The notes beneath the pieces were generated by a model that searched no databases, had not been told where the DNA came from, and worked only from the letters and a program-made list of their open reading frames with translations. A program made the position numbers and the translations under genes. 64,000 nt of DNA from Vulcanococcus sp. Clear-D1. Lineage in GTDB: Bacteria > Cyanobacteriota > Cyanobacteriia > PCC-6307 > Cyanobiaceae. This document shows, in pieces, positions 3,428 to 51,410 of this stretch (position 1 is its first letter; the number at the start of each line of letters is the position of its first letter). The DNA lies in NCBI RefSeq assembly GCF_014654725.1, contig NZ_JACVZV010000005.1:1-64000 (forward strand), read 5' to 3'.

Positions 3428-3428
3428 C

Positions 3429-7007: not shown

Positions 7008-7030
7008 GGCCTGGTGTGTGGCGGGTGGGC

Positions 7031-9048: not shown

Positions 9049-9055
9049 TCGGCGA

Positions 9056-9268: not shown

Positions 9269-9377
9269 GGCCTGACCTCTCAAGGGGGGAAGTCATCAGC
9301 GTATGAACACTGTGTGTCTTGGACAAGAACAATGAGTCGTCTTGCCTAGGGAACTGTGAAGTTGTTTTGAGCGCGCT

Positions 9378-11105
9378 TCAGGCCACCTTCTGTTTGCGCG
9401 CTTCGGCTTTGGCCTTTTGCTTGTCGCGATTGGCCTTGCGTTTGGCGTCCTGCTCGGCGGCCTGGCGTGTGGCCTCAGCGGCAGCGGCCTCTTCGGCTTT
9501 CTTCTCGCGGTAGTAGGCGTAATCGCCGCGGTAGACCACCAGTTCGCCATCGCGGATTTCCACGATCTTGTTGGCCACCCGCGAGATGAAGTAGCGGTCG
9601 TGGCTCACCACGAGCACCGCGCCCTCGTAGTCGATCAGCGCATCCTCGAGCATCTGCTTGGCCGGGATGTCGAGGTGGTTGGTGGGCTCATCCAGCACCA
9701 CGAGGTTGCAGGGCATCAGCAACATCAGCGCCAGGGCCAGGCGTGCCTTTTCGCCGCCGGAGAGCTTGCCCACCTCCTTGAACACGGCGTCGTTGCTGAA
9801 GCAGAAGCTGCCCAGCAGCGAGCGCACCTGGGTCTGGGTCCAATCGGGCACGGCCTCAAACAGGGTGTCGATCACCGTCTTGGAGAGATCAAGGGCTTCG
9901 GCCTGGTTCTGCTCGAAGTAGCCGGCGATCACGTTGTGCTCCCCAAGGCCGGCGAAGCCCTCATCGGGCTTTTCGATGCCCATCACCAGGCGCAGCAGTG
10001 TGGATTTGCCGGCGCCGTTGGGGCCCACGAAGGCGATGCGATCGCCCCGCTCCACCTCGAGGTTGGTGCCCAGGAACAGGATCTGCTCGCCGTAGCTGTG
10101 GCTGAGGTCTTTGATCTCGGCGATCAGGCGGCCGCTGCGCGGGGCCGGTGGGAACTGAAAGCGCGGCCCGCTGACGCTTTCAATCGGCGCCTCGATGCGC
10201 TCCACCTTGTCGAGCAGCTTCTCGCGGCTCTTGGCTTGGGTGGAGCGGGTGGCGCTGGCGCGGAAGCGATCGATGTAGGCCTGCTGGGTGGCGAGCTCCT
10301 TTTGCTGGCGCTCAAAGGCGGCCTGGCCGGCTTCGCGCTCCAGGGCCTTCTGCTCGAGGTGCTGGCTGTAGTTGCCCAGGTAGCTGCGGGAGACCCCTCG
10401 CTCGGTTTCCACGATCTGATTGCAGACCCGATCGAGGAAGGCCCGGTCATGGCTGATCACCACCAGCGGGCAGGTCTGGCCCACGAGGTAGTCCTCCAGC
10501 CACTGGATCGTCTCCACGTCCAGGTGGTTCGTGGGTTCGTCGAGGAGCAGCAGATCCGGCTCCTGCAGCAGCACCTTGCCCAGGGCGATGCGCATCTGCC
10601 AGCCGCCGGAGTAGTCGCCCACCAGCTGCTCGGCCCCTTCCGGGGTGAAGCCGATGGTGGGCAGCAGCTTGTCGATGCGGGCATCGAGTTCGTAGCCGTG
10701 CAGGCTCTCGAAGCGGCTCTGCAGGCTGCCCAGCTCGTGGATCAGATCATTGAGGTGGTCGGGGTCTTCGGCGGCCTTCTCCGAGCCCATCTCCTCTTCC
10801 ACCTCGCGCTGGCGGTTGAGCACCGTGGCGGCCTCGCCGAAGGCCTGGAACAGTTCCTGCCGCACGGTGCGGCTCACATCCACATCGAATTCCTGCTGCA
10901 GATACACGATCCGGGGATCGCCCTGCTTCACCACCTGGCCGCTGCTGGGCTCCTCCATCCCGGCGATGATCCGCATCTGGGTGGATTTGCCGGCGCCGTT
11001 CACGCCCACCAAGCCGATGCGATCGCCCGCCTTCACCTCCCAGGTGACATCCCGCAGCACCTCACCGGTGGGATAGATCTTCGAGACGCGTTCGAGACGG
11101 AGCAA
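9378..11105 (-). CDS. ABC-F family ATPase (duplicated ABC domains, Uup/EttA type)
   Basis: About 575 residues from a TTG at 11105, which puts LRLERVSKIYPTGEVLRDV at the N-terminus as family alignments require. An in-frame GTG at 11198 would add 31 atypical residues. Two ABC domains carry Walker A sequences GVNGAGKST and GPNGAGKST, signatures SGGWQMR and LSGGEKARLALAL, and Walker B LLLLDEPTNHLD and LVVLDEPTNHLD. There is no membrane domain. The linker is glutamine and charge rich and the C-terminus is a lysine/alanine coiled coil. ABC-F proteins act on ribosomes to relieve stalled translation or give antibiotic protection. The precise subfamily is unclear. Confidence 0.92.
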   Translation of the reverse strand: MLRLERVSKIYPTGEVLRDVTWEVKAGDRIGLVGVNGAGKSTQMRIIAGMEEPSSGQVVKQGDPRIVYLQQEFDVDVSRTVRQELFQAFGEAATVLNRQREVEEEMGSEKAAEDPDHLNDLIHELGSLQSRFESLHGYELDARIDKLLPTIGFTPEGAEQLVGDYSGGWQMRIALGKVLLQEPDLLLLDEPTNHLDVETIQWLEDYLVGQTCPLVVISHDRAFLDRVCNQIVETERGVSRSYLGNYSQHLEQKALEREAGQAAFERQQKELATQQAYIDRFRASATRSTQAKSREKLLDKVERIEAPIESVSGPRFQFPPAPRSGRLIAEIKDLSHSYGEQILFLGTNLEVERGDRIAFVGPNGAGKSTLLRLVMGIEKPDEGFAGLGEHNVIAGYFEQNQAEALDLSKTVIDTLFEAVPDWTQTQVRSLLGSFCFSNDAVFKEVGKLSGGEKARLALALMLLMPCNLVVLDEPTNHLDIPAKQMLEDALIDYEGAVLVVSHDRYFISRVANKIVEIRDGELVVYRGDYAYYREKKAEEAAAAEATRQAAEQDAKRKANRDKQKAKAEARKQKVA

Positions 11106-11209
11106 GGCGTGTGCAGTGGAGGGCGCCTGGGGCCCGGTCCTGCTTGCATCATCTCCCCTGGGAGGTCCGGCCCTGCAGACTGTTTTCTGTCCCCGCACAG
11201 CCCGGCGCC

Positions 11210-11467
11210 ATGGTGAAGCGACTCGAACAGGTGGCGGCCCTGGTGGTGGCAGCCGGCCTGGCGATCGTGAGCTACTGGCTGTTCTTCAGCTGGATGGGGG
11301 CCGACCGCCGGCCGCGCCGCAGCGCCCTAGAGGCCGCCCCGGGCCTTGAGCAGCCACTGCTTGGTTTCAGGGTCGTCGATGCTGCCCAGGTGGGTTTTCA
11401 CCTCGTCTCTGCTCACGGGCAGCCCCCAGCTGTCGCCCAGCTCACAGATGCGGCTGAGGGCGCCTGA
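11210..11467 (+). CDS. Putative short membrane protein, end uncertain
   Basis: The ATG at 11210 opens an N-terminal helix (VAALVVAAGLAIVSYWLFFSW) with basic flanks, which looks like a genuine one-helix protein. After about residue 45 the frame runs for 140 bases antisense to the convergent Nif11-like gene, and that tail probably carries no independent meaning. Either the protein really is 85 residues, or the annotated end reflects a small frameshift. It is divergent from the ABC-F gene. Function unknown. Confidence 0.4.
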   Translation: MVKRLEQVAALVVAAGLAIVSYWLFFSWMGADRRPRRSALEAAPGLEQPLLGFRVVDAAQVGFHLVSAHGQPPAVAQLTDAAEGA

Positions 11468-11560
11468 GGGGTCCTGCAGGGCCTGGCGGAAGAGCTCCTG
11501 GGTGAGCTGCTGATCGCTGCGGATGCGCTCGTAGAGGGCGGGGGCGTTGCCGGCGCTCAT
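11327..11560 (-). CDS. Nif11-like small protein
   Basis: 77 residues, acidic and helical. The pattern (LYERIRSDQQLTQELFRQAL, then a helix-turn ending GLPVSRDEVKTHLG) resembles the Nif11 domain, found in nitrogen-fixation-associated proteins and as leader peptides of ribosomal peptide natural products. It ends in ARGGL, so a double glycine lies at the very C-terminus but no core peptide follows. No modification enzyme is nearby, so it is more likely a stand-alone Nif11-type protein than a precursor. The ATG at 11560 fits the domain; longer in-frame starts exist. Confidence 0.6.
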   Translation of the reverse strand: MSAGNAPALYERIRSDQQLTQELFRQALQDPSGALSRICELGDSWGLPVSRDEVKTHLGSIDDPETKQWLLKARGGL

Positions 11561-11640
11561 GGGCTTGCTGGCCGATCGCCACACCCTATGAACGGCCGTG
11601 GCTTCTGCCCGCGCTTCGTGGTGGATCGTGATCTGCCGGT

Positions 11641-12792
11641 TTAAAGGCTCGGGTGGGCGCACACCCCTAGAACGGCCGGCTGCGCGGCGCCTGTCACCGA
11701 GGGAAGTGAGCCGCTGACCCCGTGGTGATGCCACCAGGCCAGGAGGGCGAAGGCCAGAGCCTCGCGGTCGCTCTCGCCGATGCCCAGCTCCGCCAGCGCC
11801 CGCAGCTGCAGGCCGCGGCAGCGGAGGCGCAGCTCCGCCATCAAGGTGGCGTTGCGGGCGCCGCCACCGGCCACCAGCAGTTCCAGAACGGCTGGCCCGC
11901 GGGCCAGGTCTTGGGCCACCACAGCAGCCGTGAAGGCGGTGAGTGTGGCGAGGGCATCGGCGGGCTCCAGCCGTTGATCCCGCCGATCTGCAGCGGCCTC
12001 TAGCTCCCGCAGGCGCCGCTGCAGATCTGGCTGCCCGAATAATTCCCGGCCGGTGGATTTAGGCGGCGCCTGCTGCAGATAGGGCTCTTGCAACCACCGC
12101 TGCACCAGCGCCTCATCCACCTGGCCTTGGGCTGCCCAGGCGCCATCGGCATCGAAGCGCCGCTCCCCTGCGGAGAATTGGGCCGCCGCCAGATCCAGGA
12201 GGGTGTTGGCGGGGCCGCAATCCCAGCCCTGCACGGCCGCGGTGCGATCCGGGCCCGCTTGCGGTGGCAGCAGGGTGAGGTTGGCGATGCCCCCCAAGTT
12301 GAGCAGGGCCCGCCAGCCGCCGATCGCCGGCAATAGGGCGGCATCGGCAGCTGGCACCAGCGGTGCCCCCTGGCCCCCGAGGGCTAGATCAGCGGCGCGG
12401 AAGTCGAACACCACGGGCCGCTGCAACAGCTGGGCCAGCAGGGGGCCCTGCAACAGCTGCCAGCTGCTGCCGCGGCGCTCGCCCTGGGGCGGGCGGTGCC
12501 AGAGGGTCTGGCCGTGGCACCCCACCAGCTGGGCGCTGCCGTTTGGATCGCAGGCGCGGGCCGCGGCGGCTTGCACCTCCGTGAGCGCTTCCCCCAGCTC
12601 GATCACATCCGCGGCCTGGATCGGCTGGCCTTGGCCGGCTGCGATCAGCCGCTGGCGCAGATCGTCCGGGTACGGCACGCCGGCCCGGCTGAGCAGCCGC
12701 CAGCGGGGCCGGCGCGGCGGGCCACTGAAGGCTGCCAGCACGGCATCCACGCCATCGGCGCTGGTGCCGCTCATCAGACCCAACACCCGCAT
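11641..12792 (-). CDS. anmK: Anhydro-N-acetylmuramic acid kinase
   Basis: 383 residues, standard for AnmK. The N-terminal phosphate-binding motif LGLMSGTSADGVDAVL is diagnostic; GCHGQTLWHRP, LNLGGIANLTLLPP, GWDCGPANTLLD and the later VAGGGARNATLM segment complete the ASKHA kinase fold. The enzyme cleaves and phosphorylates 1,6-anhydro-N-acetylmuramic acid to N-acetylmuramic acid 6-phosphate during peptidoglycan recycling. I chose the ATG at 12792, which gives the family-typical start MRVLGLMSG. Confidence 0.95.
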   Translation of the reverse strand: MRVLGLMSGTSADGVDAVLAAFSGPPRRPRWRLLSRAGVPYPDDLRQRLIAAGQGQPIQAADVIELGEALTEVQAAAARACDPNGSAQLVGCHGQTLWHRPPQGERRGSSWQLLQGPLLAQLLQRPVVFDFRAADLALGGQGAPLVPAADAALLPAIGGWRALLNLGGIANLTLLPPQAGPDRTAAVQGWDCGPANTLLDLAAAQFSAGERRFDADGAWAAQGQVDEALVQRWLQEPYLQQAPPKSTGRELFGQPDLQRRLRELEAAADRRDQRLEPADALATLTAFTAAVVAQDLARGPAVLELLVAGGGARNATLMAELRLRCRGLQLRALAELGIGESDREALAFALLAWWHHHGVSGSLPSVTGAAQPAVLGVCAHPSL

Positions 12793-12798
12793 GGCAAC

Positions 12799-12832
12799 AA
12801 AAAAGCCCCCGGGCATTGTCCCGGGGGCTGAT
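12799..12832 (-). terminator. Terminator of the 1-Cys peroxiredoxin gene
   Basis: On the minus strand a GC-rich stem (GCCCCCGGGA / GCCCGGGGGC type) is followed by a run of T. It sits directly downstream of the peroxiredoxin stop and just before the anmK start, separating the two transcription units. Confidence 0.85.
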
Positions 12833-12852
12833 GCATCGTGCCGCCTAGGCGA

Positions 12853-13488
12853 TCACTTGTTGGGCTGGGGGGTCATGCGCAGGTAGGGCTTGATCTCGGT
12901 CACGCCCTTGGGGAACTTGGTGCGGGCTTCATCGGTGGGGATGGAAGGAACCACCACGCAGTCTTCGCCGTCTTTCCAGTTCACCGGGGTGGCCACCTGG
13001 TGGTGGTCGGTGAGCTGCAGGGAGTCGATCACCCGCAGGATCTCCTGGAAATTCCGGCCGGTGCTGGCGGGGTAAGTGATCTGCAGACGCAGCTTTTTGT
13101 TGGGGTCGATGATGAACACCGACCGCACCGTGAGGTTGTTGAGCGAGTTGGGGTGGATCATCCCGTAGAGATCACTCACCTTCTTGTCCTCATCGGCGAG
13201 GATCGGGTAGTCGACCGTGGTGTTCTGCGTCTCATTGATGTCGCAGATCCAGCCGCCATGGCTCTCAGCGGAGTCGACGCTCAGGGCAATGGTTTTCACA
13301 TTGCGCTTCTCCCACTCGGAGCGCAGGCGCGACACCTCACCCAGCTCGGTGGTGCACACCGGGGTGTAGTCGGCGGGGTGGGAGAACAGCACCACCCAGC
13401 TATCGCCGGCGAAGTCGTAGAGGTTGATCGGGCCCAGCTGGGAGTTCTGGGTGAAATCGGGGACGGTGTCGCCCAGTTGGAGCGCCAT
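12853..13488 (-). CDS. 1-Cys peroxiredoxin (Prx6 type)
   Basis: 211 residues, the length of the Prx6 subfamily. The peroxidatic cysteine lies in SHPADYTPVCTTELGEV near residue 47 (PxxxTxxC). The long C-terminal domain with TGRNFQEILRVIDSLQLTD and ATPVNWKDGEDCVVVPS is characteristic of 1-Cys enzymes. It reduces hydrogen peroxide and alkyl hydroperoxides in the cytoplasm. It has its own promoter region (66 bases to hflX) and a strong terminator, suggesting a monocistronic, well-expressed gene. Confidence 0.93.
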   Translation of the reverse strand: MALQLGDTVPDFTQNSQLGPINLYDFAGDSWVVLFSHPADYTPVCTTELGEVSRLRSEWEKRNVKTIALSVDSAESHGGWICDINETQNTTVDYPILADEDKKVSDLYGMIHPNSLNNLTVRSVFIIDPNKKLRLQITYPASTGRNFQEILRVIDSLQLTDHHQVATPVNWKDGEDCVVVPSIPTDEARTKFPKGVTEIKPYLRMTPQPNK

Positions 13489-39912: not shown

Positions 39913-39948
39913 GCCGCCTGATCCGGCAGAAACGATGGCGTTTGCGGC

Positions 39949-40199
39949 TCACAGCCGCTGCATCCCACTGCCGCAGCGCCTGCGGTTCTCGAGCAGTTTG
40001 CGCTCCAGTGCGGCGTTGATCCCTAGGTCGGCTCCCTTCCAAAGCCGATCGATCTCGCGCGTGAAGTGAGCTGCCAGCAGCGGTGAGTGGATCACCATCA
40101 GGACCTCATCGTTTTGATGTGCGGCACTCGGGCTCCAGTTGAAGGACCCTGTGATCACGGTGTTGCCATCGATGACGGCGAGCTTGTGGTGGAGGTTGT
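39949..40199 (-). pseudogene. Stranded 3' end of the PLD-like gene
   Basis: The frame encodes the second HKD motif (AVIDGNTVITGSFNWSPSA) and the following C-terminus, ending GSGMQRL and a TGA. It is the same as the C-terminal 70-odd residues of the intact gene at 49944-51410 apart from a few differences. It lacks the signal peptide and first catalytic domain, and reading upstream reaches unrelated sequence and a stop near 40312. It is the chromosomal 3' end cut off by insertion of the element. Confidence 0.8.
39955..40199. repeat. Left 245-bp direct repeat (putative attL)
   Basis: Direct copy of 50004-50248. I count 8 mismatches, all in the inner 84 bases (40116-40199); the outer roughly 160 bases are identical. 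The repeat is coding sequence, the 3' end of a PLD-like gene. The tyrosine recombinase gene starts 188 bases inside it. I infer that recombination took place in the identical part. Confidence 0.88.
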
Positions 40200-40386: not shown

Positions 40387-41481
40387 TTGAGGAAAGCACC
40401 GTCGTTGCGGAATAACAACGGGTCTCTGCAGGTTCGTGTGCGTTTGGATGGGTGCGATCGATTTATCAACCGTTTGGGGAGGTGGGATGACCCAGTGGCA
40501 GTAGCAAGAGCACAGGCAATTGCTGCGGAAATCTGGAGTGACTACCAGCAGGGTGAGCTGGATTGGAGTCTGTCTCGTTACAAGCCTCTTGTGGAAGGCA
40601 AGGACCCTGAGCTGCTCAAGGCACTGGAGGAGTTGATGCTGCGGAAACGGCAGGGACGGGTCACGCACGCTTATCGGGTCGTCAAGCGGTATGGGAAACC
40701 GCTGCGGAGTAAGGGTGAGGTTGCTGCGTTCCTGAGCTGGATGGAGGCAGAAGGACTGGCAGCCTCAACACGATCCACACTGTTGAGCACGATCAGGAGT
40801 GTCCAGCCCGGCAATCAGGCACTGGCAGCAGCTGTGGTGAAGGTCCCGCACCGGAGTGTGCAAGAGGAGGTGTTGAGTAAGGGAGAGATCCAGAGGGTGC
40901 TAGAGGACCTGAGGATCCACGAGGACTGGTACTACCCAGTCTTTGCGGTGTGGTTGGGCACTGGATTGAGGAATTCGGAACTGATTGGTCTGACGTGGGA
41001 CTGCGTGCGGTTGGAGGAGGGAGAACTGCTGATCAGCAAGACCTTGAAGCGTGATGGAACAGCAACGCACCGGAGGGAATGGGGAGGAACCAAGACGGGG
41101 AGGAGTCGTGTGGTGCCGTTGCGTGAGGACCTGGTGGAGTTGCTGCGGGAGCACAAGGAGCAGATGGGTGCACTGGGACTGGAGACCAGGAGAGGACTGG
41201 TGTTCGTGACTCCAATCAGTCACGGACACCTGTATGACAGTGGGTTGGAGATCGTGTGGAAACGATCCCAGAGGAGAGTGGGCATCCAGCCGAGACGGTT
41301 GTATGCCCAACGGCACTCATTTTTGAGTCACGCCCTGGCAATGGGGAATAGTCCTGCGGATTTGGCAGCAGTGGCAGGGCATCGGACGGAGCAACTGCTG
41401 AATACCTATGCAAAGCCGACTGGGAGGGTGCTGTTGCCTAACTGGTCAGTGGATCAGAAGTCATTTTCATCAGTGGAATAG
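40387..41481 (+). CDS. Tyrosine recombinase (integrase) of the element
   Basis: 364 residues. The N-terminal SAM-like DNA-binding domain is at about 90-150; the catalytic domain has Arg in GTGLRNSELIGLTW, Lys in GGTKTGRSRVVPL, the box II region LYAQRHSFLSHAL, the box II histidine in AAVAGHRTEQLL and the nucleophile Tyr in LNTYAKPT. The usual HxxR histidine is a tyrosine here (YAQR). The start is a TTG at 40387 with a GGAG ribosome-binding site 7 bases upstream. It reads into the element from beside the left repeat and presumably catalyses its integration and excision. Confidence 0.92.
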   Translation: MRKAPSLRNNNGSLQVRVRLDGCDRFINRLGRWDDPVAVARAQAIAAEIWSDYQQGELDWSLSRYKPLVEGKDPELLKALEELMLRKRQGRVTHAYRVVKRYGKPLRSKGEVAAFLSWMEAEGLAASTRSTLLSTIRSVQPGNQALAAAVVKVPHRSVQEEVLSKGEIQRVLEDLRIHEDWYYPVFAVWLGTGLRNSELIGLTWDCVRLEEGELLISKTLKRDGTATHRREWGGTKTGRSRVVPLREDLVELLREHKEQMGALGLETRRGLVFVTPISHGHLYDSGLEIVWKRSQRRVGIQPRRLYAQRHSFLSHALAMGNSPADLAAVAGHRTEQLLNTYAKPTGRVLLPNWSVDQKSFSSVE

Positions 41482-41915
41482 AAGATCTTGGTGTTCACCT
41501 GCCCCTCACGGCTGACTTTATAGAAGCAACGGCTGATGCTGTCAGCCCATAAGGTCTCTGTGGAGAAGGTCAGAACATCACCAGCACCGAATTGACGAAA
41601 GAGTACCCAAGCAACCCAGCGGGTCACGTGATCATCTGCATTGAGGAGAGGAATACCTTCTAGAATGATGGTCTGCCCATCTCGTTTCAGTTGGAAATAC
41701 TCGCCCAGATCAAAGTGATCGTCAAGGAACGGGTCAATGGCGTCGTCGATATCAAAAGCATCAGCAAATGCTTGATAAGCAGAGTCGAGATCGAATGCAG
41801 TTGATCTTACTTCTGACTGGATCGTGCTTTCGATGTGTGCAATGAGCTGCTCTGTGGTGATCGATGGATTGATGAGGTCAAAGCAAGCATAAGCTTGAGT
41901 GGAGCACTGTGGCAT
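41454..41915 (-). CDS. Acidic protein of unknown function, convergent with the recombinase
   Basis: 153 residues, strongly acidic (AFADAFDIDDAIDPFLDDHFDLG region), with a beta-rich second half (QLKRDGQTIILEGIPLLN). No signal peptide or membrane helix. Its 3' end overlaps the recombinase 3' end by 28 bases. I recognise no family. Small acidic proteins in mobile elements can be DNA mimics that block host enzymes, or regulators; both are only possibilities. The upstream region is A+T rich (TTAATTCATTATG) and might hold the promoter. Confidence 0.65.
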   Translation of the reverse strand: MPQCSTQAYACFDLINPSITTEQLIAHIESTIQSEVRSTAFDLDSAYQAFADAFDIDDAIDPFLDDHFDLGEYFQLKRDGQTIILEGIPLLNADDHVTRWVAWVLFRQFGAGDVLTFSTETLWADSISRCFYKVSREGQVNTKIFYSTDENDF

Positions 41916-42475: not shown

Positions 42476-42655
42476 CTAGAGGACTGATGCTTCCGTCAGG
42501 GTATAAACCTGATTGATCAGATCCCAGATTGCATCAGAGCAATCGTGCCGTTCGGCATTGGTGGCTGCCTGCCCATAGGACCAGTTGAGGATCTCCTGTG
42601 GATCCGGCTGATGCCAAGCATATTGATCCGCAAGGACTGAAGATGGGTTCATCAT
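42476..42655 (-). CDS. Third gene of a coupled mini-gene cassette, unknown function
   Basis: A 59-residue frame starting with two ATG codons; the first overlaps the previous stop as ATGA. The protein is acidic, with QPDPQEILNWSYGQAATNAE and DCSDAIWDLINQVYTLTE, predicted helical. No family is recognised. Two successive ATGA overlaps are the main evidence that it is coding. Confidence 0.6.
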   Translation of the reverse strand: MMNPSSVLADQYAWHQPDPQEILNWSYGQAATNAERHDCSDAIWDLINQVYTLTEASVL

Positions 42656-42777
42656 CTGATCTTGTCGTATTGGATCCTGATGAGGTCCTTAAGCAGTTCA
42701 TTTGGTCGTTTATGCGCTTTACGTGCTAATTGCTCGAGCATCAGGTAATCAAGCTTATCGATGGTAATGGTCTTCAT
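42652..42777 (-). CDS. 41-residue ribbon-helix-helix-like protein
   Basis: The sequence opens MKTITIDKLDYLMLEQLARK, a beta strand followed by a helix, then KRPNELLKDLIRIQY, a second helix; this is the strand-helix-helix plan of MetJ/Arc/CopG-type DNA-binding proteins. Its ATG overlaps the stop of the preceding gene as ATGA and its stop overlaps the next start in the same way. It could be an autorepressor, antitoxin or excision factor of the element. Confidence 0.65.
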   Translation of the reverse strand: MKTITIDKLDYLMLEQLARKAHKRPNELLKDLIRIQYDKIR

Positions 42778-42956
42778 TGATTATTGTCTCCTCTTGGTGC
42801 ATTAAAGGTGATCTGGTGCTCCTTCTGGATCAGGTGTTTAACCAGTTCTGATTTGTTCATCTTGTGCCTACGGCAAAGTTGATCCCTTAAGGATCGTATG
42901 TGGTTCTCATCTTGTTTGTAGGAAATCTGTTCCCGGATTGGTTTGGTACTGTTCAT
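42774..42956 (-). CDS. 60-residue ribbon-helix-helix-like protein
   Basis: A basic 60-residue protein. After a short strand-like region (REQISYKQ) come two helices, ENHIRSLRDQLCRRH and KSELVKHLIQKEH, the plan of CopG-type DNA-binding proteins. It is the first gene of three with consecutive ATGA overlaps. Function is probably DNA binding and control of the element; a toxin-antitoxin role is possible, but no toxin family is recognisable. Confidence 0.65.
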   Translation of the reverse strand: MNSTKPIREQISYKQDENHIRSLRDQLCRRHKMNKSELVKHLIQKEHQITFNAPRGDNNQ

Positions 42957-43346
42957 TGTGCTGGTGGTGTTGTATGGATTGTGGTTCTAGTGATCCTTAA
43001 GGGTCCGTAGTTGGCTGGCTTGGATCAGGTGCTTGAGATATTTTAGGCAACTTGATTTCTAAAGGGATTTTATTGAATCCCACTGCGTGGGATTGCCTAC
43101 GGCAGCCTTGAGGTTTGAATCTTGATCTTGTTACCAGAAGGGATGCTTAATGGTCTTGAGGGTATTGATGAGCCTAGTGTTTGTTGAAACTACTACGTAG
43201 TTATTTATGTATTCTGGAACTTCAAGGTATATTTCCTGAAGGAAGTGCGTAGTTATTCTATCGAGAATACTTGATCTTGTCAAATTGACAATCCAGGAAG
43301 ATGATCTTATGATTGCATCTGTGAAATAAACATTGTGGAGTTCAAT
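42957..43346. other. A+T-rich divergent intergenic region with a perfect hairpin
   Basis: 390 bases between the mini-gene cassette (left, minus strand) and the zinc-ribbon gene (right, plus strand), with no convincing gene. It contains a perfect 8-bp inverted repeat (AATCCCAC / GTGGGATT, 3-base loop) at 43076-43094 without a T-run, and the motif CGTAGTTATT twice near 43195 and 43249. Position and base composition fit a control region or replication origin of the element. Confidence 0.5.
43076..43094. repeat. Perfect inverted repeat in the element control region
   Basis: AATCCCAC and GTGGGATT separated by TGC. There is no T-run on either side, so it is not a typical terminator. It may be an operator for the small ribbon-helix-helix-like proteins or part of an origin. 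Confidence 0.55.
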
Positions 43347-43730: not shown

Positions 43731-44117
43731 ATGAGGGATAGAAGTAGAAAGAGCCGACCACTGACGTTTGATCGGTTTCTCAAGAAGGCACAAGAGTTTC
43801 TATCGATGCGTCATCGCAGTCGGTTGCTGGAGACGATGTTTTATGTCTATCGTACGGATACCAATGCCATCTTGGCTCGTCATCTTGATGGGTTTGATGC
43901 TGCCAAGGAGAAAGCCAATCAATTGCGACGACAGTTGGGGTTGAAATGGGATCAGGTGAAGTTCAAGGCAGAACGTCAGGCAAGTGCGGCACCTGCTTCC
44001 AGAAGCACTGGGTCTGGTTCTAGAAGGATTGACTATGCACCACGGTATAATCCATCCAAAGGCAGACGATTTCGTGGGTACACGGATGCCGACGGGAATT
44101 ATCACGATATTGATTGA
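43731..44117 (+). CDS. Basic protein paired with the zinc-ribbon protein, unknown function
   Basis: 128 residues, strongly basic. The ATG follows the previous stop without a gap, so the two genes are coupled. The central part (HLDGFDAAKEKANQLRRQLG) is helical; the C-terminus is Ser/Arg rich and ends in GRRFRGYTDADGNYHDID. The charge suggests nucleic-acid binding. No family recognised. Confidence 0.6.
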   Translation: MRDRSRKSRPLTFDRFLKKAQEFLSMRHRSRLLETMFYVYRTDTNAILARHLDGFDAAKEKANQLRRQLGLKWDQVKFKAERQASAAPASRSTGSGSRRIDYAPRYNPSKGRRFRGYTDADGNYHDID

Positions 44118-44164: not shown

Positions 44165-44869
44165 TCAGCCGATACTTGCCAGGATAGGCTTTCCACTGTA
44201 GTGGATCTTGTTGTGAAGAAGAATGTCACGACCATACAAGAGTTTAATTCCTGCAAGAGTGTCATCGCTCAAGGATCGGTCAATGGATTTGGATTTCTCT
44301 ACTTTCGAGTGAAGGCGAACAAGTTCTTTTGTTATCGGTATTTCTAGCCTTTGGCAGTGTTGATGCAATTCACTCCAGTGACTGTCGGATTGCTCGGTCA
44401 ATCCGACAAACTTTGGCAGCCTGCCTGAACTGTCTTCTATGAGGAATGTTTGAGGTTGGGTATGTACGTCCATCCTGTTGAGGTTGATAGAGAGGGTATG
44501 ACTTGCAAATTCTTCAAATGACATCTGTGCTGTATAGCCAAGTCTTTGAAAGCTTTTTGAACGGCACTTGTTGTCCACTATCTTGTCCGCATAGCAAGAA
44601 AAGAGCCGATCGACTGGTTCTCTGATGAAGGAAAAGGAGAACAGCTCTTTGTAGTTGCCTGTGTATTCGTCGGGGGAGAGAAAGCGTGTGCCCCTTGATG
44701 GCTCCTTCCAGTACTTGTCGTTCGTTGGATTGAATTTAGACTGCACGGAAGATCTGTCCTTTGGAGTCAGCCTTGCCAAGGTTTCCTTGATGGATGTATT
44801 CGCCGCTTTCGGCACTCGAGCATAGACCAGCTTGTGCTTCTCAAAGAAGAGAAATCCTTTTCCTCTCAT
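44165..44869 (-). CDS. Family-2 sulfotransferase (carbohydrate type)
   Basis: 234 residues. The 5'-phosphosulfate-binding loop is YARVPKAANTSIKETL near residue 17, and the 3'-phosphate motif is FSFIREPVDRLFSCYADK near 80, together the signature of the Sulfotransfer_2 family that sulfates carbohydrates with PAPS. It is cargo of the element and neighbours two large surface-type proteins, so it could sulfate cell-surface glycans. Codon use is more A+T rich than in the flanking genome, pointing to transfer. Confidence 0.88.
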   Translation of the reverse strand: MRGKGFLFFEKHKLVYARVPKAANTSIKETLARLTPKDRSSVQSKFNPTNDKYWKEPSRGTRFLSPDEYTGNYKELFSFSFIREPVDRLFSCYADKIVDNKCRSKSFQRLGYTAQMSFEEFASHTLSINLNRMDVHTQPQTFLIEDSSGRLPKFVGLTEQSDSHWSELHQHCQRLEIPITKELVRLHSKVEKSKSIDRSLSDDTLAGIKLLYGRDILLHNKIHYSGKPILASIG

Positions 44870-45074
44870 TAGATTGGGTTGTCGTGTTGAGTGCTATGGG
44901 TGAAGCTTTTATCCCGTCGGTAATTGTGGGAGTGAGTTCACAGGGCTTCTACAGGGCTTCTTGCATCCAGCATTGCTAATGATTCGGTCTAGCATAGGTT
45001 GCCGGAAAGTTTATATGTTTACTCTCTTTGATTCCAGTGACCTAGTTGCATCTGTCCTCCGAGATGTGTGATGT

Positions 45075-46493
45075 CTATACGATAACGGCAGCAATATTGC
45101 GGAAGGTGCCGACGTCATTGCCAAAGAGGTCTTCTAGCACTCCTGATGATTGATCCTTCTTGGGGTCTCGGTAACTGACCTGTACGTCTGAATCGGATTC
45201 AACCGCAGTAGCAAAAGTCAGGATCGCACGTGTTGAATTACTTTCCACAATTGCATCAGAAGTCTTTACCTTCTTTCCGTCGATGCGAACTTTAAATCTT
45301 GATGCCTTGATCGTACCTGGATTAATTAACTCATCGAACTGCATTGCAGCGATCTGCCCGTTTACTGTAATATCTATTAGGACAGGATGACTCTGATCAT
45401 TCGGATGGCTTTGTTCCGCTTCGTTTTCTGTTATGGTTAGCCTAATTGCTTCAGTAGGTGCCTGCAGGAAATAGTCAGGACTTCGTGCTGGCAACAAAGA
45501 TACCTTTATTGTTTCATCTTTCTCTGCCTTCTTGTTGGCAATTACCCAGAGATCAATATCCACTGAGGACACTCCAGGCGGAAATTCAACAAAGCTGCTG
45601 CCATCAAATGTGATGTCGTGAAACCAGTCTTGATATCCATCGTTGTAATACCAGTTTGCTTTCCCAAAATCCCACTGAAGATTTACCTTTGCTGATTCAC
45701 CTAGATATCCATCGGACCGAGTTAGCCTCATTTGCTTTAGGGTTTTACCTGCGACTGGTTCTTGGACTATGTTGCCACCAGCAAACTCTGCTGAAAGTGT
45801 TGGGCTTTTCCATTCATTGAGAATCGGCAATGTGTGCTGATTTATAAGCAGTGTGCCGTCATCCCCATTCTGTGAAATATTGCCCGATTCAGCGCCATGA
45901 ATTAGTGTGATTGCCTGTTGGTCAAGAGCAGTAAACTGTGGATTCCCATCTGTATCAATTTCTTGTTCATATGACATGACCGTATCGTTGGTGGTCAAAT
46001 TAGCGTCACCGTCTCCATCTTCATGGTCATGAGGATGCTCTAGACCAAGCGCATGACCTAGTTCGTGGAAGGCGACGTTCTTCCACCCAGCCTCTGCAGA
46101 GCCACCAAAATACGAAGAATGTGTGTATGCGCTTTGGGCAAGTGTGATATTTCCAGTGTTCTGTCTTTTGAAGTTGTATGGTTCTCCGGTTGAATCGTAT
46201 TCATATGAATAGCGAGGTGACGTGTACTGCCCTGATTGGGATCCCGACACATAGTCTCTATTAACTTGTTCTATTGTGAGCTGGCTTCTGGTGTCGTCAG
46301 CTGTAACTAGGCATATCTCTGGTTCGATAATGCCATCAGCGGTCAGCAAAACATCTTTCCACCAATTCCTCAAGGTATCATCGAGCGAGTTTCCCAGGGA
46401 AAGATAAATGACCCCATTGTCGGAATGGAGCCACTGAGCTGCAAGTCTTTCTTGGCTAGCAAGAGCACCTTCGTCGATGATGGCTGAAGTCAC
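45075..46493 (-). CDS. Metzincin-type metalloprotease with a C-terminal SwmB-like repeat
   Basis: 472 residues from a GTG. The zinc site HELGHALGLEH is at residues 143-153 and the Met-turn TVMSYEQ at 171-177, so this is a matrixin/serralysin-like metzincin. A Calx-beta/carbohydrate-module-like region follows (about 230-350). The last 100 residues are one SwmB-type repeat, ending SSGVLEDLFGNDVGTFRNIA. No N-terminal signal peptide is visible, which suggests type I-like export through the C-terminus. Its 3' 105 bases are nearly identical to those of the next gene upstream, 46617-49694. Confidence 0.85.
   Translation of the reverse strand: MTSAIIDEGALASQERLAAQWLHSDNGVIYLSLGNSLDDTLRNWWKDVLLTADGIIEPEICLVTADDTRSQLTIEQVNRDYVSGSQSGQYTSPRYSYEYDSTGEPYNFKRQNTGNITLAQSAYTHSSYFGGSAEAGWKNVAFHELGHALGLEHPHDHEDGDGDANLTTNDTVMSYEQEIDTDGNPQFTALDQQAITLIHGAESGNISQNGDDGTLLINQHTLPILNEWKSPTLSAEFAGGNIVQEPVAGKTLKQMRLTRSDGYLGESAKVNLQWDFGKANWYYNDGYQDWFHDITFDGSSFVEFPPGVSSVDIDLWVIANKKAEKDETIKVSLLPARSPDYFLQAPTEAIRLTITENEAEQSHPNDQSHPVLIDITVNGQIAAMQFDELINPGTIKASRFKVRIDGKKVKTSDAIVESNSTRAILTFATAVESDSDVQVSYRDPKKDQSSGVLEDLFGNDVGTFRNIAAVIV
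45087..45191. repeat. Shared C-terminal coding repeat, copy 1
   Basis: 105 bases matching 46629-46733 with 4 differences. Both copies encode the final 35 or so residues of their proteins, including VSYRDPKKDQSSGVLEDLFG. Such conservation is much higher than between other SwmB repeats of the same proteins. Confidence 0.85.
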
Positions 46494-46616
46494 TTGAATG
46501 GCTGCAGATTCTTGTTGTGGTTTTGGTCTAATGTTTGAAACAAGCAGTAGCGTCTGATTGTTTCGTCAATACCTGGATGCCTCTAGGGAGATGATGTGCA
46601 TTTCTGGGGCATATGT

Positions 46617-49600
46617 CTATATTACTGTGGCAGCAATATTTCGGAAGGTGCCGACATCATTGCCAAAGAGGTCTTCTAGGACTCCTGATGATTGATCCTT
46701 CTTGGGGTCTCGGTAACTGACCTGCACGTCTGATCCAGCAGTGAGGATTGCAGGCAGAGTTAAGACTGCAAATGTGGAGTCCTGATCGACAATGGCATCA
46801 GATGTCTTGACCTTTGTGCCATCTACACGCACCTGGAACTTCGATGCCTTGATGGTTGCTGGATTGATGATCTCATCAAATTCCATCAGGACCTCGGCTC
46901 CGTCAACCGAGATCTCCAGCAGTTCTGGTGGGATCTCATCGGTGGTGAGGTTGGTTGCAGACAGATCGGAGAAGGACTCAAGATCAGTCCCAATCAAGTC
47001 CTCGATGACCCCAGAGGTCTGATTGCCCTTGAGGTCTTTGTAACTCACCAGAACATCTTGACCTGGATCCAGGGTGTTCTTGAGGGTGAGGGTAACGATC
47101 CCATCACCAGGATCGGTTTCTACTGAAGTGATGGGATTGGATCGACCATCCACTTTGACTTTAAACCGAGCATTGCCAGGAGATGTCGTTCCAATCTCTT
47201 CTGAGAGTTGAATGGAAATCTGGTTGTCTTGCGCCTCGATCGTATCGACCTCAAGGACAGTTGTCTTTTGGGTGATGTTCTTGGCTGGTAGTTGCAGGAA
47301 GGATGCAAGGTCGTTGCCATCTTGATCTTGGATCACACCTGAAGTCTGATCACCATCAGGGTCGTTGTAGGAGATCAGTAACTGATCACCCGGTTCCACT
47401 GGTTTCTGCAGACCGAGAAACACCTCTTGTGTTGATGTGACGGTATCGACCGATGTGACTCGTACATTTTGGTTGTTAACTGTGACTCGGAACAGCCTGG
47501 ATGGTGCAATCACATCATCCAGTTCACGATCAAACCGTAAGGTGACATCTTGTCCATCCACCTCAGCACTGCTGACCTCAAGAGGATTGATGGTGGCAAC
47601 GGTTTCATTGATGACTTCAAAGCCTTGGAAGCTCTCAAGGTCATTGCCGTATCCATCTTGAAGAACGCCTGTGGTTTGATCACCATTGAGGTCCTTGTAA
47701 TCCAGGGTGACTGCGGTACGGGCAGCCACAGGACGACTCAACGTGAGGACAACAGAACCTGCAGTGTCATCGACTTGCAGACCAGTGATGCTGATTGTCT
47801 TGCCTGCTTCCTTGAGTTTGAAGGAAGTCAGTGCTGGTTGCGTGCTCTGTAGTGCCTCTGAGAAGGTGAGCAGTGCTTGCGATCCAGTGATCGAGGCTGA
47901 CTCAAGAACAGGAGGTTCTTGATCTGTGCTTTGGTTGGAGACATTAGCGGTGAAGGATGCAACATCAGTGCCATCCAGTGCCTGAATCACACTGCTGACT
48001 TGATCACCATTGAGGTCCCTGTACGCAATGGTGACTGTTTCTTTTGGAGCAATGGATCGCAGCAACTGCAGATTGACGACCCCTGCACTTCCCGTTACTA
48101 TTGTGGCAAAGACTCCGACGTTCTTGCCGTTTGCCTGAACTGTAAAGGATGTTGCGGCAGGTTTCGTGTTGGATAGTTCGGAATCAAATGCAAGAGTAAT
48201 CAGGTCTCCGGTAACAGTTCCTTCTAACAGCCTTGGTGCTGATGGAGCAGGTGTTGGTGCTGCAGGAATCACAACGGCTGACGTGGTGATGGTTTCATCA
48301 AAGTCTTCTGCATCGGTGTATGACACCACAACCCTGATCTGTTTGCCTTGATCCGTGGTCTGAAGTTTGTAGGAGGAACCAGAACCGATGGAAGACCAGG
48401 AGGAACCGTTTGTGGAGGCTTGCCAGGAATAGGTGGGAGTGCCGTTGCCGTCTAGGTCATCAGATGTTTGTTGAACCTGAAGGGTTGATCCAATGGATGT
48501 CGAACCACTGATCTGGAACGATGCTTTGCCGTTATTGGTGTTTGATCCGGAGATTGCCGTCGTAGCAGTGGTTCGGATTGTTTCAGTTGTTCCGTATCCA
48601 TCTACATAGTTCACAACAGCACGAATTTGCTTGCCGACTTCTGCGGAGGTCAGCGTGTAGGTGGTGGTGTTATCAGTTGCGTCTGCCGTATTGATGGTCA
48701 TCCAATTGGCACCATCAACTGATGACTCCCAGGAGTATTGGAAGGCGGGTGTATATCCAATGAAGTTGTCAGCATCCTGGATTCTTGATGAGTCGATAGT
48801 GAGAGTGGAACCTGTCTTTAGTTGTCCTGCGATTGTTGGTGAACCGGTAGGGGTGTTGTTGGGAGCGAGTGGTATCTCTGCTATGCCATACCTGACGTGA
48901 CCATTCCCACCGTTATTCGTGGCATCGTTCCACTCCGAGGTTGTTGCCTCTCCGTATGCGTTTCGTGCATAGAGGTGAACATAGTCTTCTTCTCCGTACG
49001 CGCCGTCACCGCTAGGCTCTCCTGGCGCAAAGTTGCGGTAGTCAGGCGTCTCGCCTGAGGACCAAGTAAAAACTCCCTCTCTGCTTGCATCATTCAAGCC
49101 GATGAACATCATATTGTCAGGCTTGAGCGAAAGAAGGCGTGTGTACACAAATGTATCTTCTTTTCCATCATTAATGGTCACCAGGTGCCCGCCGAGTCTG
49201 ACGGCGTTCGCCTCTGCTTCTTCCCAGGTGGGTCCTTCGACGATTACATAGGCAGAATCTCCACGTCTGATGAAGGGGATTTCTGCGATACCCTCGCTGT
49301 TGCCACCATTGCCGTCAATGTAGTAGTCGTCCCACGTTCCATCATTTGTCCCCCACCAAAAATTTGCATAGTCTTGCGCTTCACTCCCTTTGCCGGCTTC
49401 ATATTGAATACCTGATGTATTTGCGGGTGCCACATAGGCCCAATTCGTGAATACGACATCTTCACCATTGGACCAGCGCCAGGTCCCCTCTGTTTCGGCG
49501 TCGTTTAGTCCAATCCATTTTTCTTCTGATGGAGTATTGGATGGTCCGAACTTCTCCCAAACGAAGGTGTTCTCTGAGCTATCGCTTATTGTCACCAAAT

Positions 49601-49694
49601 GTCCACCCAGTTTCACCGCATTAGCCTCTGCCTGCGTCCAAGAAGGACCTGGCACGATGGTGTAGAGGGAGTTGCCGCGGATTACAGGTGTCAT
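46617..49694 (-). CDS. Large surface protein with two C-type lectin-like domains and SwmB-type repeats
   Basis: 1025 residues. Two C-type lectin-like domains fill about residues 8-140 and 145-280 (WTQAEANAVKLGGHLVTISD and WEEAEANAVRLGGHLVTIND, each with a later WIGLND or FIGLND). Two immunoglobulin-like repeats follow (to about 490), then five SwmB-type repeats with the consensus SYxDxxGDQTSGVIQDxxGNDLASF. SwmB is a cell-surface protein required for swimming in some marine Synechococcus. No signal peptide is seen. GAGG precedes the ATG at 49694 by a good distance. It is probably an adhesin or surface-binding protein. Confidence 0.85.
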   Translation of the reverse strand: MTPVIRGNSLYTIVPGPSWTQAEANAVKLGGHLVTISDSSENTFVWEKFGPSNTPSEEKWIGLNDAETEGTWRWSNGEDVVFTNWAYVAPANTSGIQYEAGKGSEAQDYANFWWGTNDGTWDDYYIDGNGGNSEGIAEIPFIRRGDSAYVIVEGPTWEEAEANAVRLGGHLVTINDGKEDTFVYTRLLSLKPDNMMFIGLNDASREGVFTWSSGETPDYRNFAPGEPSGDGAYGEEDYVHLYARNAYGEATTSEWNDATNNGGNGHVRYGIAEIPLAPNNTPTGSPTIAGQLKTGSTLTIDSSRIQDADNFIGYTPAFQYSWESSVDGANWMTINTADATDNTTTYTLTSAEVGKQIRAVVNYVDGYGTTETIRTTATTAISGSNTNNGKASFQISGSTSIGSTLQVQQTSDDLDGNGTPTYSWQASTNGSSWSSIGSGSSYKLQTTDQGKQIRVVVSYTDAEDFDETITTSAVVIPAAPTPAPSAPRLLEGTVTGDLITLAFDSELSNTKPAATSFTVQANGKNVGVFATIVTGSAGVVNLQLLRSIAPKETVTIAYRDLNGDQVSSVIQALDGTDVASFTANVSNQSTDQEPPVLESASITGSQALLTFSEALQSTQPALTSFKLKEAGKTISITGLQVDDTAGSVVLTLSRPVAARTAVTLDYKDLNGDQTTGVLQDGYGNDLESFQGFEVINETVATINPLEVSSAEVDGQDVTLRFDRELDDVIAPSRLFRVTVNNQNVRVTSVDTVTSTQEVFLGLQKPVEPGDQLLISYNDPDGDQTSGVIQDQDGNDLASFLQLPAKNITQKTTVLEVDTIEAQDNQISIQLSEEIGTTSPGNARFKVKVDGRSNPITSVETDPGDGIVTLTLKNTLDPGQDVLVSYKDLKGNQTSGVIEDLIGTDLESFSDLSATNLTTDEIPPELLEISVDGAEVLMEFDEIINPATIKASKFQVRVDGTKVKTSDAIVDQDSTFAVLTLPAILTAGSDVQVSYRDPKKDQSSGVLEDLFGNDVGTFRNIAATVI
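46629..46733. repeat. Shared C-terminal coding repeat, copy 2
   Basis: 105 bases matching 45087-45191 with 4 differences, at the 3' end of the lectin/SwmB gene. It could be a common export or anchoring signal, kept uniform by recent duplication or gene conversion. Confidence 0.85.
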
Positions 49695-50003
49695 AAGATC
49701 CTCGAAATCCCCTTGAGAAGGAATAAGGCTGTCAGGGCTGGGGCTTGTCCTTACACCCGATTTACTTTGATTCTATAGGATCTCAAGGATCTCTCCTTGA
49801 TTCTCTTGTGCCGCAGAGGTCCTGTGCTGCAACGGACCTCAAGGAACCCGGTCCTTTATGCACTACCGGCATAACCTGTCCCCTTTTGTGACCTGGAGAC
49901 CTGGATTGGCTTCTCCCGGCTCCAAAGTCTCCAGAAGCCAGTCTCAGAGCCAGCCCGCAAGCCTGCGACCTCCCAAAACCCCTGCCCAGTCCACCACTCG
50001 CAA
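49695..50003. other. Right arm of the element, upstream of the lectin gene
   Basis: 309 bases between the lectin gene start and the right repeat. The left part should contain the lectin promoter; the right part (49944-50003) is now read as the last codons of the PLD-like gene. Apart from a few short CTCAAGGA-type repeats near 49767-49800 and 49828-49845, I see nothing recognisable. Confidence 0.45.
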
Positions 50004-51410
50004 CCGCTGCATCCCACTGCCGCAGCGCCTGCGGTTCTCGAGCAGTTTGCGCTCCAGTGCGGCGTTGATCCCTAGGTCGGCTCCCTTCCAAAGCCGATCG
50101 ATCTCGCGCGTGAAGTGAGCTGCCAGCAGCGGTGAGTGGATCACCATCAGGACCTCATCGTTTTGGTGAGCTGCAGACGGGCTCCAGTTGAAGGAACCTG
50201 TGATCACGGTGTTGCCATCGATGACGGCGAACTTGTGGTGGAGCTTGTCCCCCCTGGCCAGGCGCGGGATTCCTACCCCTTCGGCGGCCTGCTTGAGGGG
50301 TTGGTTGCCGGCTTCCACCTTGCAGTGGCGATCCGCCAGGGCCACGCCGAGAAGATCCAGCACTTCGGAGAAGGAGCGGCTGGCGAAGCCGGGATCGGCC
50401 AGGAGTCGCAGCCGCACTCCTTTGGCCTGCAGGTCTGCGATCACCGTGGTGAGGGCCTGGGCTGAAAAGACGAACAACGCGAGATCCACCCGTTGCTTTG
50501 CGGTGGCCAGGGTGTTGCTGATCAGATGGAGGCCGTGGTTGGGATCGCTGCTCCGGTGTGGGGCAAACAGCACCTCCACGCTGGTCTGTCCCACCATCAC
50601 CTGAGCCGCGGGGCCGGATTGTTTGGCCAGCCCGAAGCGGCTATCGGGCTGGCCGCCCGGACCATCGCCCCACATGCGGCTGAAGTCGTCGGCGAAGAGC
50701 TCGGCCAGCTGAGGGCTGTCCAGCTGGAGCAGATGGTTCACGTTGCCGCGGGTGCGTCGATCGGCTGCATCGCCATGCATGCCTGATGCCGTGAAGTTCG
50801 CCGATCCGGTGATGACCAGCCGCCGGTCGACCACCACATATTTCGAGTGCATCAGGCCGCTGCCTTTGCTGCCATCGGCTGTGTCATCGAGCCATGGCAC
50901 GCCGGCGGCCGTGAGGATGGCTACGGCGTCGCCGCTTTGCTGCTCTGCCAGGCTCACCTTGCCGTCGCGGTTGCGATCGGCCAGCTCCATCAGCAGCTGG
51001 CGGCGTTGGCGTGCGTGGCCATCAAGATCTGCTTCGTGCTGCTCACTCCACGGGGTGCTGTAGGTGTTCTCCAACACCACCTTCACCGTCACGCCCCGGC
51101 GGTGTTGGCGCACCAGGGCTTCGGCAATGGCCGGTAAAGACAGCTCCTGCACGGCCACCAGGACCTCCTGTTCGGCGGCCTCGATCCCACGGATCACCAA
51201 CGCCTCGAGGTTGTCGCCATTGCGGGCTTCAGCGTGGATCGGGCTCCGGTAGTGGCGGTCTGCGCGGTGGTTGAAGGCCACCTGGATTCCATCCGGTAGC
51301 GGCAACTCCACAGGGCCAGTGCCCACCAGTCGGCCGGCTTGGCTGCCGCAGCCCTGCACCAGGGAGAGCGCGAGCAGCAACGCCCCCCAGCAACGCTTCG
51401 ATTCGATCAC
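49944..51410 (-). CDS. PLD-superfamily lipoprotein with two HKD motifs, 3' end replaced by the element
   Basis: 488 residues. A lipobox (ALSLVQGCG) near residue 20 predicts a lipoprotein. The first HKD motif is HSKYVVVDRRLVITGSANF and the second HHKFAVIDGNTVITGSFNW, so both halves of the PLD active site are present. An EF-hand-like loop, DRNGDGKVSLAEQ, is inserted near 145. It should cleave phosphodiesters (phospholipid or nucleic acid) at the envelope. The C-terminal RVVDWAGVLGGRRLAGWL after GSGMQRL is encoded by the element; the stranded native end stops at MQRL. Confidence 0.88.
   Translation of the reverse strand: MIESKRCWGALLLALSLVQGCGSQAGRLVGTGPVELPLPDGIQVAFNHRADRHYRSPIHAEARNGDNLEALVIRGIEAAEQEVLVAVQELSLPAIAEALVRQHRRGVTVKVVLENTYSTPWSEQHEADLDGHARQRRQLLMELADRNRDGKVSLAEQQSGDAVAILTAAGVPWLDDTADGSKGSGLMHSKYVVVDRRLVITGSANFTASGMHGDAADRRTRGNVNHLLQLDSPQLAELFADDFSRMWGDGPGGQPDSRFGLAKQSGPAAQVMVGQTSVEVLFAPHRSSDPNHGLHLISNTLATAKQRVDLALFVFSAQALTTVIADLQAKGVRLRLLADPGFASRSFSEVLDLLGVALADRHCKVEAGNQPLKQAAEGVGIPRLARGDKLHHKFAVIDGNTVITGSFNWSPSAAHQNDEVLMVIHSPLLAAHFTREIDRLWKGADLGINAALERKLLENRRRCGSGMQRLRVVDWAGVLGGRRLAGWL
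50004..50248. repeat. Right 245-bp direct repeat (putative attR)
   Basis: Direct copy of 39955-40199, lying within the intact PLD-like gene. Its inner-gene part (50165-50248) is continuous with the rest of the host gene and differs from the left copy at 8 positions; the remaining 160 bases are identical. Confidence 0.88.

Follow-up and report, generated by a model that had tools for sequence, protein, structure and literature searches.

Three overlapping small genes: a probable control operon on a small mobile island of picocyanobacteria

What could three tiny genes, packed end to end on the minus strand, be doing in a picocyanobacterial genome? They were noticed in a stretch of 64,000 nt from Vulcanococcus sp. 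Clear-D1 (contig NZ_JACVZV010000005.1, positions 1 to 64,000; hereafter the window), where genes of 60, 41 and 59 codons (g1, g2 and g3) had been described as joined by two successive ATGA overlaps. The list of open reading frames (ORFs) and their translations bore this arrangement out with exact coordinates, the ATGA bases being common to g1 and g2 at 42774-42777 and to g2 and g3 at 42652-42655. The start of g3 is ambiguous by one codon, with two consecutive ATGs (MM). The first two products are basic (pI 9.9 for g1 and 9.8 for g2). The third, expected to be acidic and without assignment, indeed has a pI of 4.1 and gave no match in Pfam, PHROGs, defence-family and other family scans. We consider the three overlapping genes as real genes, and the trio as the probable control operon of a small picocyanobacterial mobile island. 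The features on which this view is based are collected in Table 1.

Table 1. Features of the element and of its insertion site, in window coordinates.
Feature	Coordinates	Strand	Remarks
Left direct repeat (att copy), duplicated PLD-gene 3' end	39948..40199	.	252 nt, 96% identical to 49997-50248
Tyrosine recombinase, 364 aa	40387..41481	+	Phage_integrase 2.3e-17 (Pfam); phrog_1 integrase 1.2e-35
Acidic 153-aa protein, pI 4.1	41454..41915	-	3' end overlaps recombinase 3' end
g3	42476..42655	-	59 aa, acidic accessory protein
g2	42652..42777	-	41 aa, ribbon-helix-helix protein by predicted fold
g1	42774..42956	-	60 aa, first operon gene, probable ribbon-helix-helix protein
Third AACTACG core copy, near g1 start	43006..43012	-	7 bases only; chance possible
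Tandem hairpins, g1-operon leader	43076..43104	-	Pattern scan with shuffles
O2, second copy of AATAACTACG	43195..43205	-	Overlaps palindrome ACTACGTAGT (43192-43201)
O1, AATAACTACGC on -10 box and start of g1 promoter	43247..43257	-	Candidate site
Predicted g1-operon promoter, TTGACA-17-TAGAAT	43255..43283	-	11/12 consensus; leader about 292 nt
Predicted zinc-domain gene promoter, TTGACA-17-TATGAT	43285..43313	+	11/12 consensus
Stand-alone T4-type primase zinc-binding domain, 131 aa	43335..43730	+	Cyanophage and gp61 matches
yrt, 128-aa basic protein	43731..44117	+	Element hallmark; 17 ORFs in 16/37 neighbourhoods
Sulfotransferase, cargo	44165..44869	-	Pfam Sulfotransfer_2 2.3e-22
Matrixin-like metalloprotease with SWM repeat, cargo	45075..46493	-	SWM_repeat 1.9e-8, Peptidase_M10 3e-5 (Pfam)
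C-type lectin + SWM-repeat protein, 1025 aa, cargo	46617..49694	-	SWM_repeat 6e-58, Lectin_C 6.5e-19 (Pfam)
PLD gene	49944-51410	-	Pfam PLDc_2 8.4e-45
Right direct repeat, inside PLD gene	49997..50248	.	Repeat match

The trio was found within a 10,049-bp integrated element carrying a tyrosine recombinase at one end, in line with the claim that an element with a recombinase surrounds it. This call is based on the direct repeats, the recombinase, a step in GC content and the alignment of the joined flanks in relatives. In 1-kb steps, GC amounts to 44-53% between 41 and 50 kb, against 57-71% in the rest of the window. Of 25 genomes belonging to the genus, 23 gave a match to the PLD gene DNA, which covered the greater part of the query in 22. 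When the two flanks of the element were joined in a script and aligned to relatives, they aligned contiguously in three out of 11 (L125, L126, L127), thereby revealing the empty site; in L128 and L129 both flanks aligned separately, within 0.4 kb, and in the remaining six only the PLD side did. No tRNA gene was present in the window, and no capsid or terminase family was found among the proteins scanned. The acidic 153-aa protein gave no significant family match and had no relative in the 16 neighbourhoods compared for it; at its place, L059 and L061 carry a different protein family of 183-185 aa. A direct repeat of 121 nt (92%; 45071-45191 and 46613-46733) was also seen at the 3' ends of both SWM-repeat cargo genes, perhaps reflecting a recent duplication or a gene conversion.

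Relatives of g1 were sought in the family of the searched genomes, which we take to be the Cyanobiaceae. A search with the single sequence gave matches in 13 of 151 family genomes, and a profile search (E up to 0.001) reached 49 of 400 at 65 places, the window's own genome included; named carriers are Cyanobium sp. CH-040, Synechococcus sp. CS-1330 and CS-1331, S. lacustris and a Synechococcaceae MAG. Two weak matches among 292 phylum-wide genomes were discounted as g1 relatives outside the family, since one lies inside a 405-aa frame and the other has four stops. The genomic context was compared in 37 neighbourhoods, i.e., the window and 36 stretches, each 20 kb long at most and drawn mainly from the top-scoring of the 65 places, which together hold 40 g1 genes. 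The recombinase was matched in 36 of them (none in L081; some matches are fragments), the primase zinc-domain gene that is divergent from the trio in 30 and yrt in 16, and g1 was present without the zinc-domain gene in seven. Twenty arbitrarily chosen control stretches of these genomes contained no match to g1, g2, g3, yrt, cc, ddav or the zinc-domain gene, and one weak match to the recombinase. Across the 400 family genomes, g1 occurred in 49, the zinc-domain gene in 51 and both in 30, versus 6.2 expected if independent, a comparison whose p-value is inexact as the genomes are related. At 39 of the 65 g1 places the zinc-domain gene lay at most 2.6 kb away. From these sequence matches, g1 is considered as the hallmark of the element family.

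Direct repeats were also observed around sister elements. In L059, two sister elements stand in tandem (1106-13382) with three 223-bp repeats of a gene end, spaced 6.8 and 5.3 kb; the target is presumably the 3' end of uvrA, a name given from a 988-aa frame. Repeats were found elsewhere as a pair 5.3 kb apart (L061), as three copies (L071) and as a pair 6.7 kb apart (L082). In L078, from the same genus as the window, a copy of the PLD fragment seen here is found next to the recombinase, and in eight loci (L058, L064, L066, L075, L077, L079, L090, L094) the distance between the recombinase and tRNA-Ser(cga) is at most about 0.6 kb. In most other loci the repeat search gave no clear border.

The conservation of the trio in sister elements, suggested as a check by the original prediction, was observed in part. 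A small frame follows g1 within -30 to +60 nt in 37 of the 40 g1 genes, with a gap of -4 (ATGA) in 17 of these 37, and the direct g1-g2 junctions show the ATGA overlap in nine cases out of 15, window included; some of the loci are close relatives, and the tallies are biased towards overlap as the start was taken as the in-frame ATG nearest the 4-base overlap. The frame found after g1 varies among elements (g2, the coiled cc protein, ddav, k88), and the close junction is often kept. Small frames classed as '?' after g1 in L057, L066 and L085-L088 look RHH-like (ribbon-helix-helix) by eye. The g2 family comprises 24 ORFs in 20 of the 37 neighbourhoods. As for g3, it was found in four, with relatives in L056, L057 and L066 at 26-30% identity. 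In L056 and L057, the two relatives having the g2-g3 pair, the genes are separated by a gap of 13 nt without overlap, and in L066 g3 overlaps cc, not g2. Thus, g1, g2 and their ATGA overlap are recurrent in relatives, whereas the g2/g3 overlap is peculiar to the window, and g3 is a rare, lineage-specific acidic accessory. Because g3 is acidic, it may perhaps act as an anti-repressor or DNA mimic, which is a guess.

Selection was estimated from relatives. For g1, dN/dS ranged from 0.00 to 0.23 in 26 pairs (a naive count on non-independent pairs that excludes the window copy, too diverged), pointing to purifying selection on g1 in relatives. For g2, the single usable pair gave 0.27 (naive count, without the window copy). 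It is thus hardly credible that the three frames are chance ORFs rather than genes: all three are short and g3 is rare and weakly conserved, but g1 and g2 are conserved, the dN/dS of relatives is low as given above, and a conserved promoter precedes g1.

The first two products had been described as small strand-helix-helix DNA-binding proteins. This holds for g2 by predicted fold and probably for g1, for which the fold match is weak. The AlphaFold2 model of g2 (pLDDT 90.3 from a 3-sequence alignment) has helices at residues 8-20 and 25-40, the strand being unformed in the monomer. It superposed on the RHH domain of PutA over 41/41 residues with an rmsd of 1.0 A and a VIA-align Z of 6.7, a value in the range below 8 that is counted as common. 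The next matches were Arc, CopG, AtaR, NikR and others, and nearly all of the 50 fold matches listed were RHH proteins. The Foldseek E values were weak (best 0.41). It is because nearly the whole list belongs to one fold that g2 was judged to be an RHH protein by predicted fold. At the sequence level, the g2 family gave Pfam leads below the cut-off (RHH_4 0.041 and RHH_1 0.11, each in 1 of 22 members), and its profile found no RHH chain among PDB sequences.

In the case of g1, the alignment core contains invariant S, K, E, L, S, L and K, with a strand-like stretch and a conserved S-x-L-x-K that opens the second helix. Such a motif at the start of the second helix is typical of RHH proteins. 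The g1 model (pLDDT 73.8, 6 sequences; helices 17-30 and 35-52) resembles CopG and MazE-mt9 weakly, with Z about 4, 4.2 at best, and Foldseek E of 3.4 or worse. The sequence leads were sub-threshold (aCcr1 0.0081 in 3 of 16 g1 members, a CopG-like phrog 0.07, CcdA 0.6), none of the Pfam matches of the 16 members was to RHH, and a profile-profile comparison between g1 and g2 gave a probability of 11%. Hence, structure prediction, run as single-chain models, placed g2 on RHH structures and gave g1 only weak matches, and the profile search against MetJ/Arc/CopG families yielded sub-threshold leads for both, with no curated family above the cut-off. Taken together, g1 is probably an RHH protein.

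The RHH fold could also suggest a toxin-antitoxin module, in which g2 would be the antitoxin and g3 or another protein the toxin, as the original prediction had offered among its options. Many of the fold matches of g2 are RHH antitoxins, and tiny overlapping genes are typical of these modules. However, the gene after g2 varies (g3, cc, yrt or none), g3 is found in four of the 37 neighbourhoods and has no family match, and the scans returned no toxin family match. A module of this kind is very improbable and was rejected, as no constant toxin partner stands beside the RHH gene.

The region shared by g1 and the zinc-domain gene (42957-43334) contains two divergent predicted sigma-70-type promoters. 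They are the joint best-scoring ones of the 10-kb element, and a single nucleotide separates their -35 boxes; over the whole element, promoter-like sites number 10, versus 9.3 in shuffles. Directed towards g1, the pattern TTGACA-17-TANAAT occurs in 19 of 32 g1/zinc-domain intergenic regions, versus 0.07% of shuffles, and in the 13 regions without it the g1 proteins are unlike that of the window. The -35 boxes are 1 nt apart in eight of the 32. Two candidate protein-binding sites were identified, of which O1 sits on the -10/start site of the g1 promoter: O2 is 10/11 identical to O1 and lies 52 bp downstream of it, which was seen in 0 of 300 shuffles. Among window-like copies, the best second copy of the start-site repeat lies at +48 to +57 in nine out of 14; in the L071-like copies it lies at -79 to -92 in 5/5, with a different core, AACCTTG. 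Taken singly, the start-site repeat was reached by at most 2% of shuffles in seven of 19 copies and was not above them in the other 12.

The leader of the g1 operon contains a further conserved feature. Two adjacent hairpins were present in 12 of 19 leaders, some of which are near-duplicates, and in 10 of the 17 short leaders, versus 0.9% of their shuffles. The stems differ in sequence among relatives yet remain paired; they were tested by a pattern scan, the MAFFT alignment having misplaced the stems of several rows. The fold of the whole leader was no better than that of shuffles (z -1.09), and the leader gave no match in Rfam up to E 1. Its length is 273-408 nt in 17 of 19 copies and is greater by insertion in L060 and L075. 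In these two loci, insertions of 1-2 kb separate the promoter from g1, and that of L060 contains a 327-aa ORF that looks transposase-like by eye.

On the other side of this region, the 131-aa zinc-domain protein matched 359 phage records, each of which bears the name of a Synechococcus, Prochlorococcus, cyanophage or marine virus. Among 20 of these matches listed, which show 25-31% identity, the annotated ones are DNA primase gp61. With the profile built from the element family, T4 gp61 (8dvf_H) was matched from residue 7 to residue 113 at an E value of 8.8e-8; searched against the PDB, the single sequence of the window did not reach gp61. Four Cys are invariant in 19 members of the family, and dN/dS was 0.18-0.67 in eight pairs of relatives (naive count on non-independent pairs, without the window copy). 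In this T4 structure, the zinc ribbon of gp61 is followed by the helicase-interacting motif HIM1 at residues 74-97, and Lys115 is the first residue of the RNA polymerase domain (PMC10359460). The RNA polymerase/TOPRIM domain is absent from the element protein, which is 131 aa long and whose profile stops at gp61 residue 113. Judged from its sequence, the product carries the gp61 zinc-binding domain without the polymerase domain. Because the sequence of HIM1 is not conserved, according to the same study (PMC10359460), docking on a cyanophage helicase is something that we infer. Host DnaG was rejected as a source of the domain, as the profile finds only the element copy in the genome of the window (E up to 1e-4).

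The gene that follows, yrt, is recognized by the motifs FYVYRTDT / FYIYRTDT and YNPSKGRRFRGYTD..DID / YNPSKGRRFRGYTD..GNYHDID, and searches of Pfam, PHROGs, phages and viral contigs found nothing significantly similar to its product. In viral contigs no relative was recovered with either of two g1 alignments, with that of yrt or with the recombinase, and the zinc-domain protein yielded a single 20-residue match (L121). Phage records scanned with yrt and g1 gave no match, and neither did plasmid records scanned with the zinc domain. The marine virus AG-345-D19 (L072) was considered as a satellite and rejected: its full-length primase frame is followed by ribonucleotide-reductase-like frames, which is the annotated order of T4-like cyanophages. 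The proteins of sister elements gave no informative match in PHROGs and Pfam, a 43-aa frame of L085 reaching SirC_C below the cut-off, and ten proteins scanned against defence families had no match.

From these results, we regard it as rather likely that the trio is an autoregulated dual-RHH switch over the two divergent promoters of a tyrosine-recombinase integrative element. Repression is the usual role of RHH proteins this small, and promoter control is favoured because of the shared divergent promoter region with a primase zinc-domain gene on its other side, a context absent from the original prediction. According to this explanation, g1 and g2, two miniature RHH proteins, would be co-translated via the ATGA overlap, resulting in a fixed proportion of both. 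Alone or together with g2, g1 would probably bind the repeated AATAACTACG sites on its own -10/start site and 52 bp downstream, a spacing of about five helical turns, and occupancy of these sites would lead the g1 operon to repress itself. Because the two -35 boxes abut, the opposite promoter, which serves the zinc-domain gene and the 128-aa gene, would be controlled too, and the integrated element would stay quiet until a trigger. The opposite gene corresponds to that half of a T4-type primase which binds ssDNA and the helicase; this suggests that the release would come with phage infection, and that the phage primosome would then be either disturbed or exploited. Control of the zinc-domain gene would not be the sole role of g1, since seven of the 37 neighbourhoods have g1 without that gene. 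Behind this scheme stand observations on the genes, their conservation, purifying selection on g1 in relatives, the g2 fold (as a prediction), the element borders and empty site, the conserved promoter layout, the repeats and the leader hairpins; we infer the RHH identity of g1, the binding, the repression, the pairing of protein with site and the trigger.

Instead, g1 or g2 could be a recombination directionality factor, binding the att arms and turning the recombinase to excision. Both are small basic putative DNA-binding proteins that accompany a recombinase in 36 of the 37 neighbourhoods, and the recombinase is the sole window protein scanned that matches an integration/excision family. 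Directionality factors usually follow their att site, and the characterised ones are mostly winged-helix proteins. By contrast, g1 is conserved across unrelated targets (the PLD and uvrA 3' ends, tRNA-Ser neighbours), and the candidate sites, sought in the promoter regions, lie at the promoters. This role, which we find unlikely, was kept as a possible one because excision of PICMI satellites requires a small gene that shares an ATGA overlap with int (PMC10803314).

The fold matches of g2 include CopG, ParG and Omega structures, which raises the question of whether the small proteins govern the copy number or partition of an excised, replicating form. Plasmid RHH proteins of this size do exert copy-number or partition control, and the gene on the divergent side encodes part of a replication protein. 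However, scans of the window proteins gave no match to a ParA-like or Rep initiator family. We hold this function to be quite unlikely; it overlaps with the dual-RHH switch favoured above.

The phage-type primase domain suggests a broader reading, which is conceivable and remains doubtful in our view: the elements would be minimalist satellites of T4-like cyanophages, or guards against them, with the primase half docking on gp41 and the trio as the switch. The detached primase half, made of the zinc ribbon and the helicase-docking region, would jam or re-aim phage priming. The two RHH proteins would keep the two-way promoter shut until infection, and the structured leader RNA would provide a second layer of control. 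Like PICI and PICMI satellites, the elements measure 5-10 kb, carry a tyrosine recombinase, have direct-repeat borders at a conserved gene and a regulator divergent from a primase-like gene, and gave no capsid or terminase match in the protein scans. Unlike these satellites, the regulators of the window look RHH, not Stl or AlpA, and only the primase zinc domain is present, without the catalytic domain. In PICMI satellites of vibrios, the primase gene helps replication (PMC10803314). The element protein also differs from T4 gp61 in being free-standing and in ending before the RNA polymerase domain.

The dual-RHH switch may also be compared with CopG/Arc-type repressors (pMV158 CopG, P22 Arc and Mnt, the PutA RHH domain, RHH proteins of archaeal viruses and plasmids). 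As in these, the proteins are basic, two-helix and of 41-60 aa, g1 and g2 adjoin the control region of a mobile element, and the g2 model superposes on PutA, Arc and CopG. Unlike them, two different tiny RHH-like proteins are co-translated from one operon, no family model is reached at the cut-off, and the operon of the window is divergent from a phage-type primase domain gene. FciC of the CA4-A island of marine Synechococcus is likewise an RHH protein of 55-67 aa in a picocyanobacterial genomic island; unlike g1, it sits with AraC-type regulators and a phycobilin lyase (PMC3877281). Tycheposons of Prochlorococcus are also tyrosine-recombinase elements with cargo in picocyanobacteria; they integrate at a tRNA gene (PMC10872708), whereas the element of the window sits in the 3' end of the PLD gene and not at a tRNA. 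Another picocyanobacterial recombinase element sits at tRNA-Phe or tRNA-Cys (PMC10187409). Among the entries listed by a literature search on titles and abstract starts, with the primary papers on tycheposons and VEIMEs outside it, none describes the present module.

Picocyanobacteria and the T4-like phages that infect them are of major importance in lakes and oceans. The recurrent module, which combines a dual RHH operon, abutting divergent promoters, a structured leader and a detached primase domain, makes a whole class of small elements recognizable by sequence, and it offers a directly testable hypothesis on the means by which an element might monitor or sabotage the replication of phages. 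In addition, genes of 41 codons are seen to be able to recur in such elements. Besides the trio, the genome of the window harbours a second g1 relative (L069, G000:C10:36000-55999), which is accompanied by another recombinase and a ddav gene, without the zinc-domain gene.
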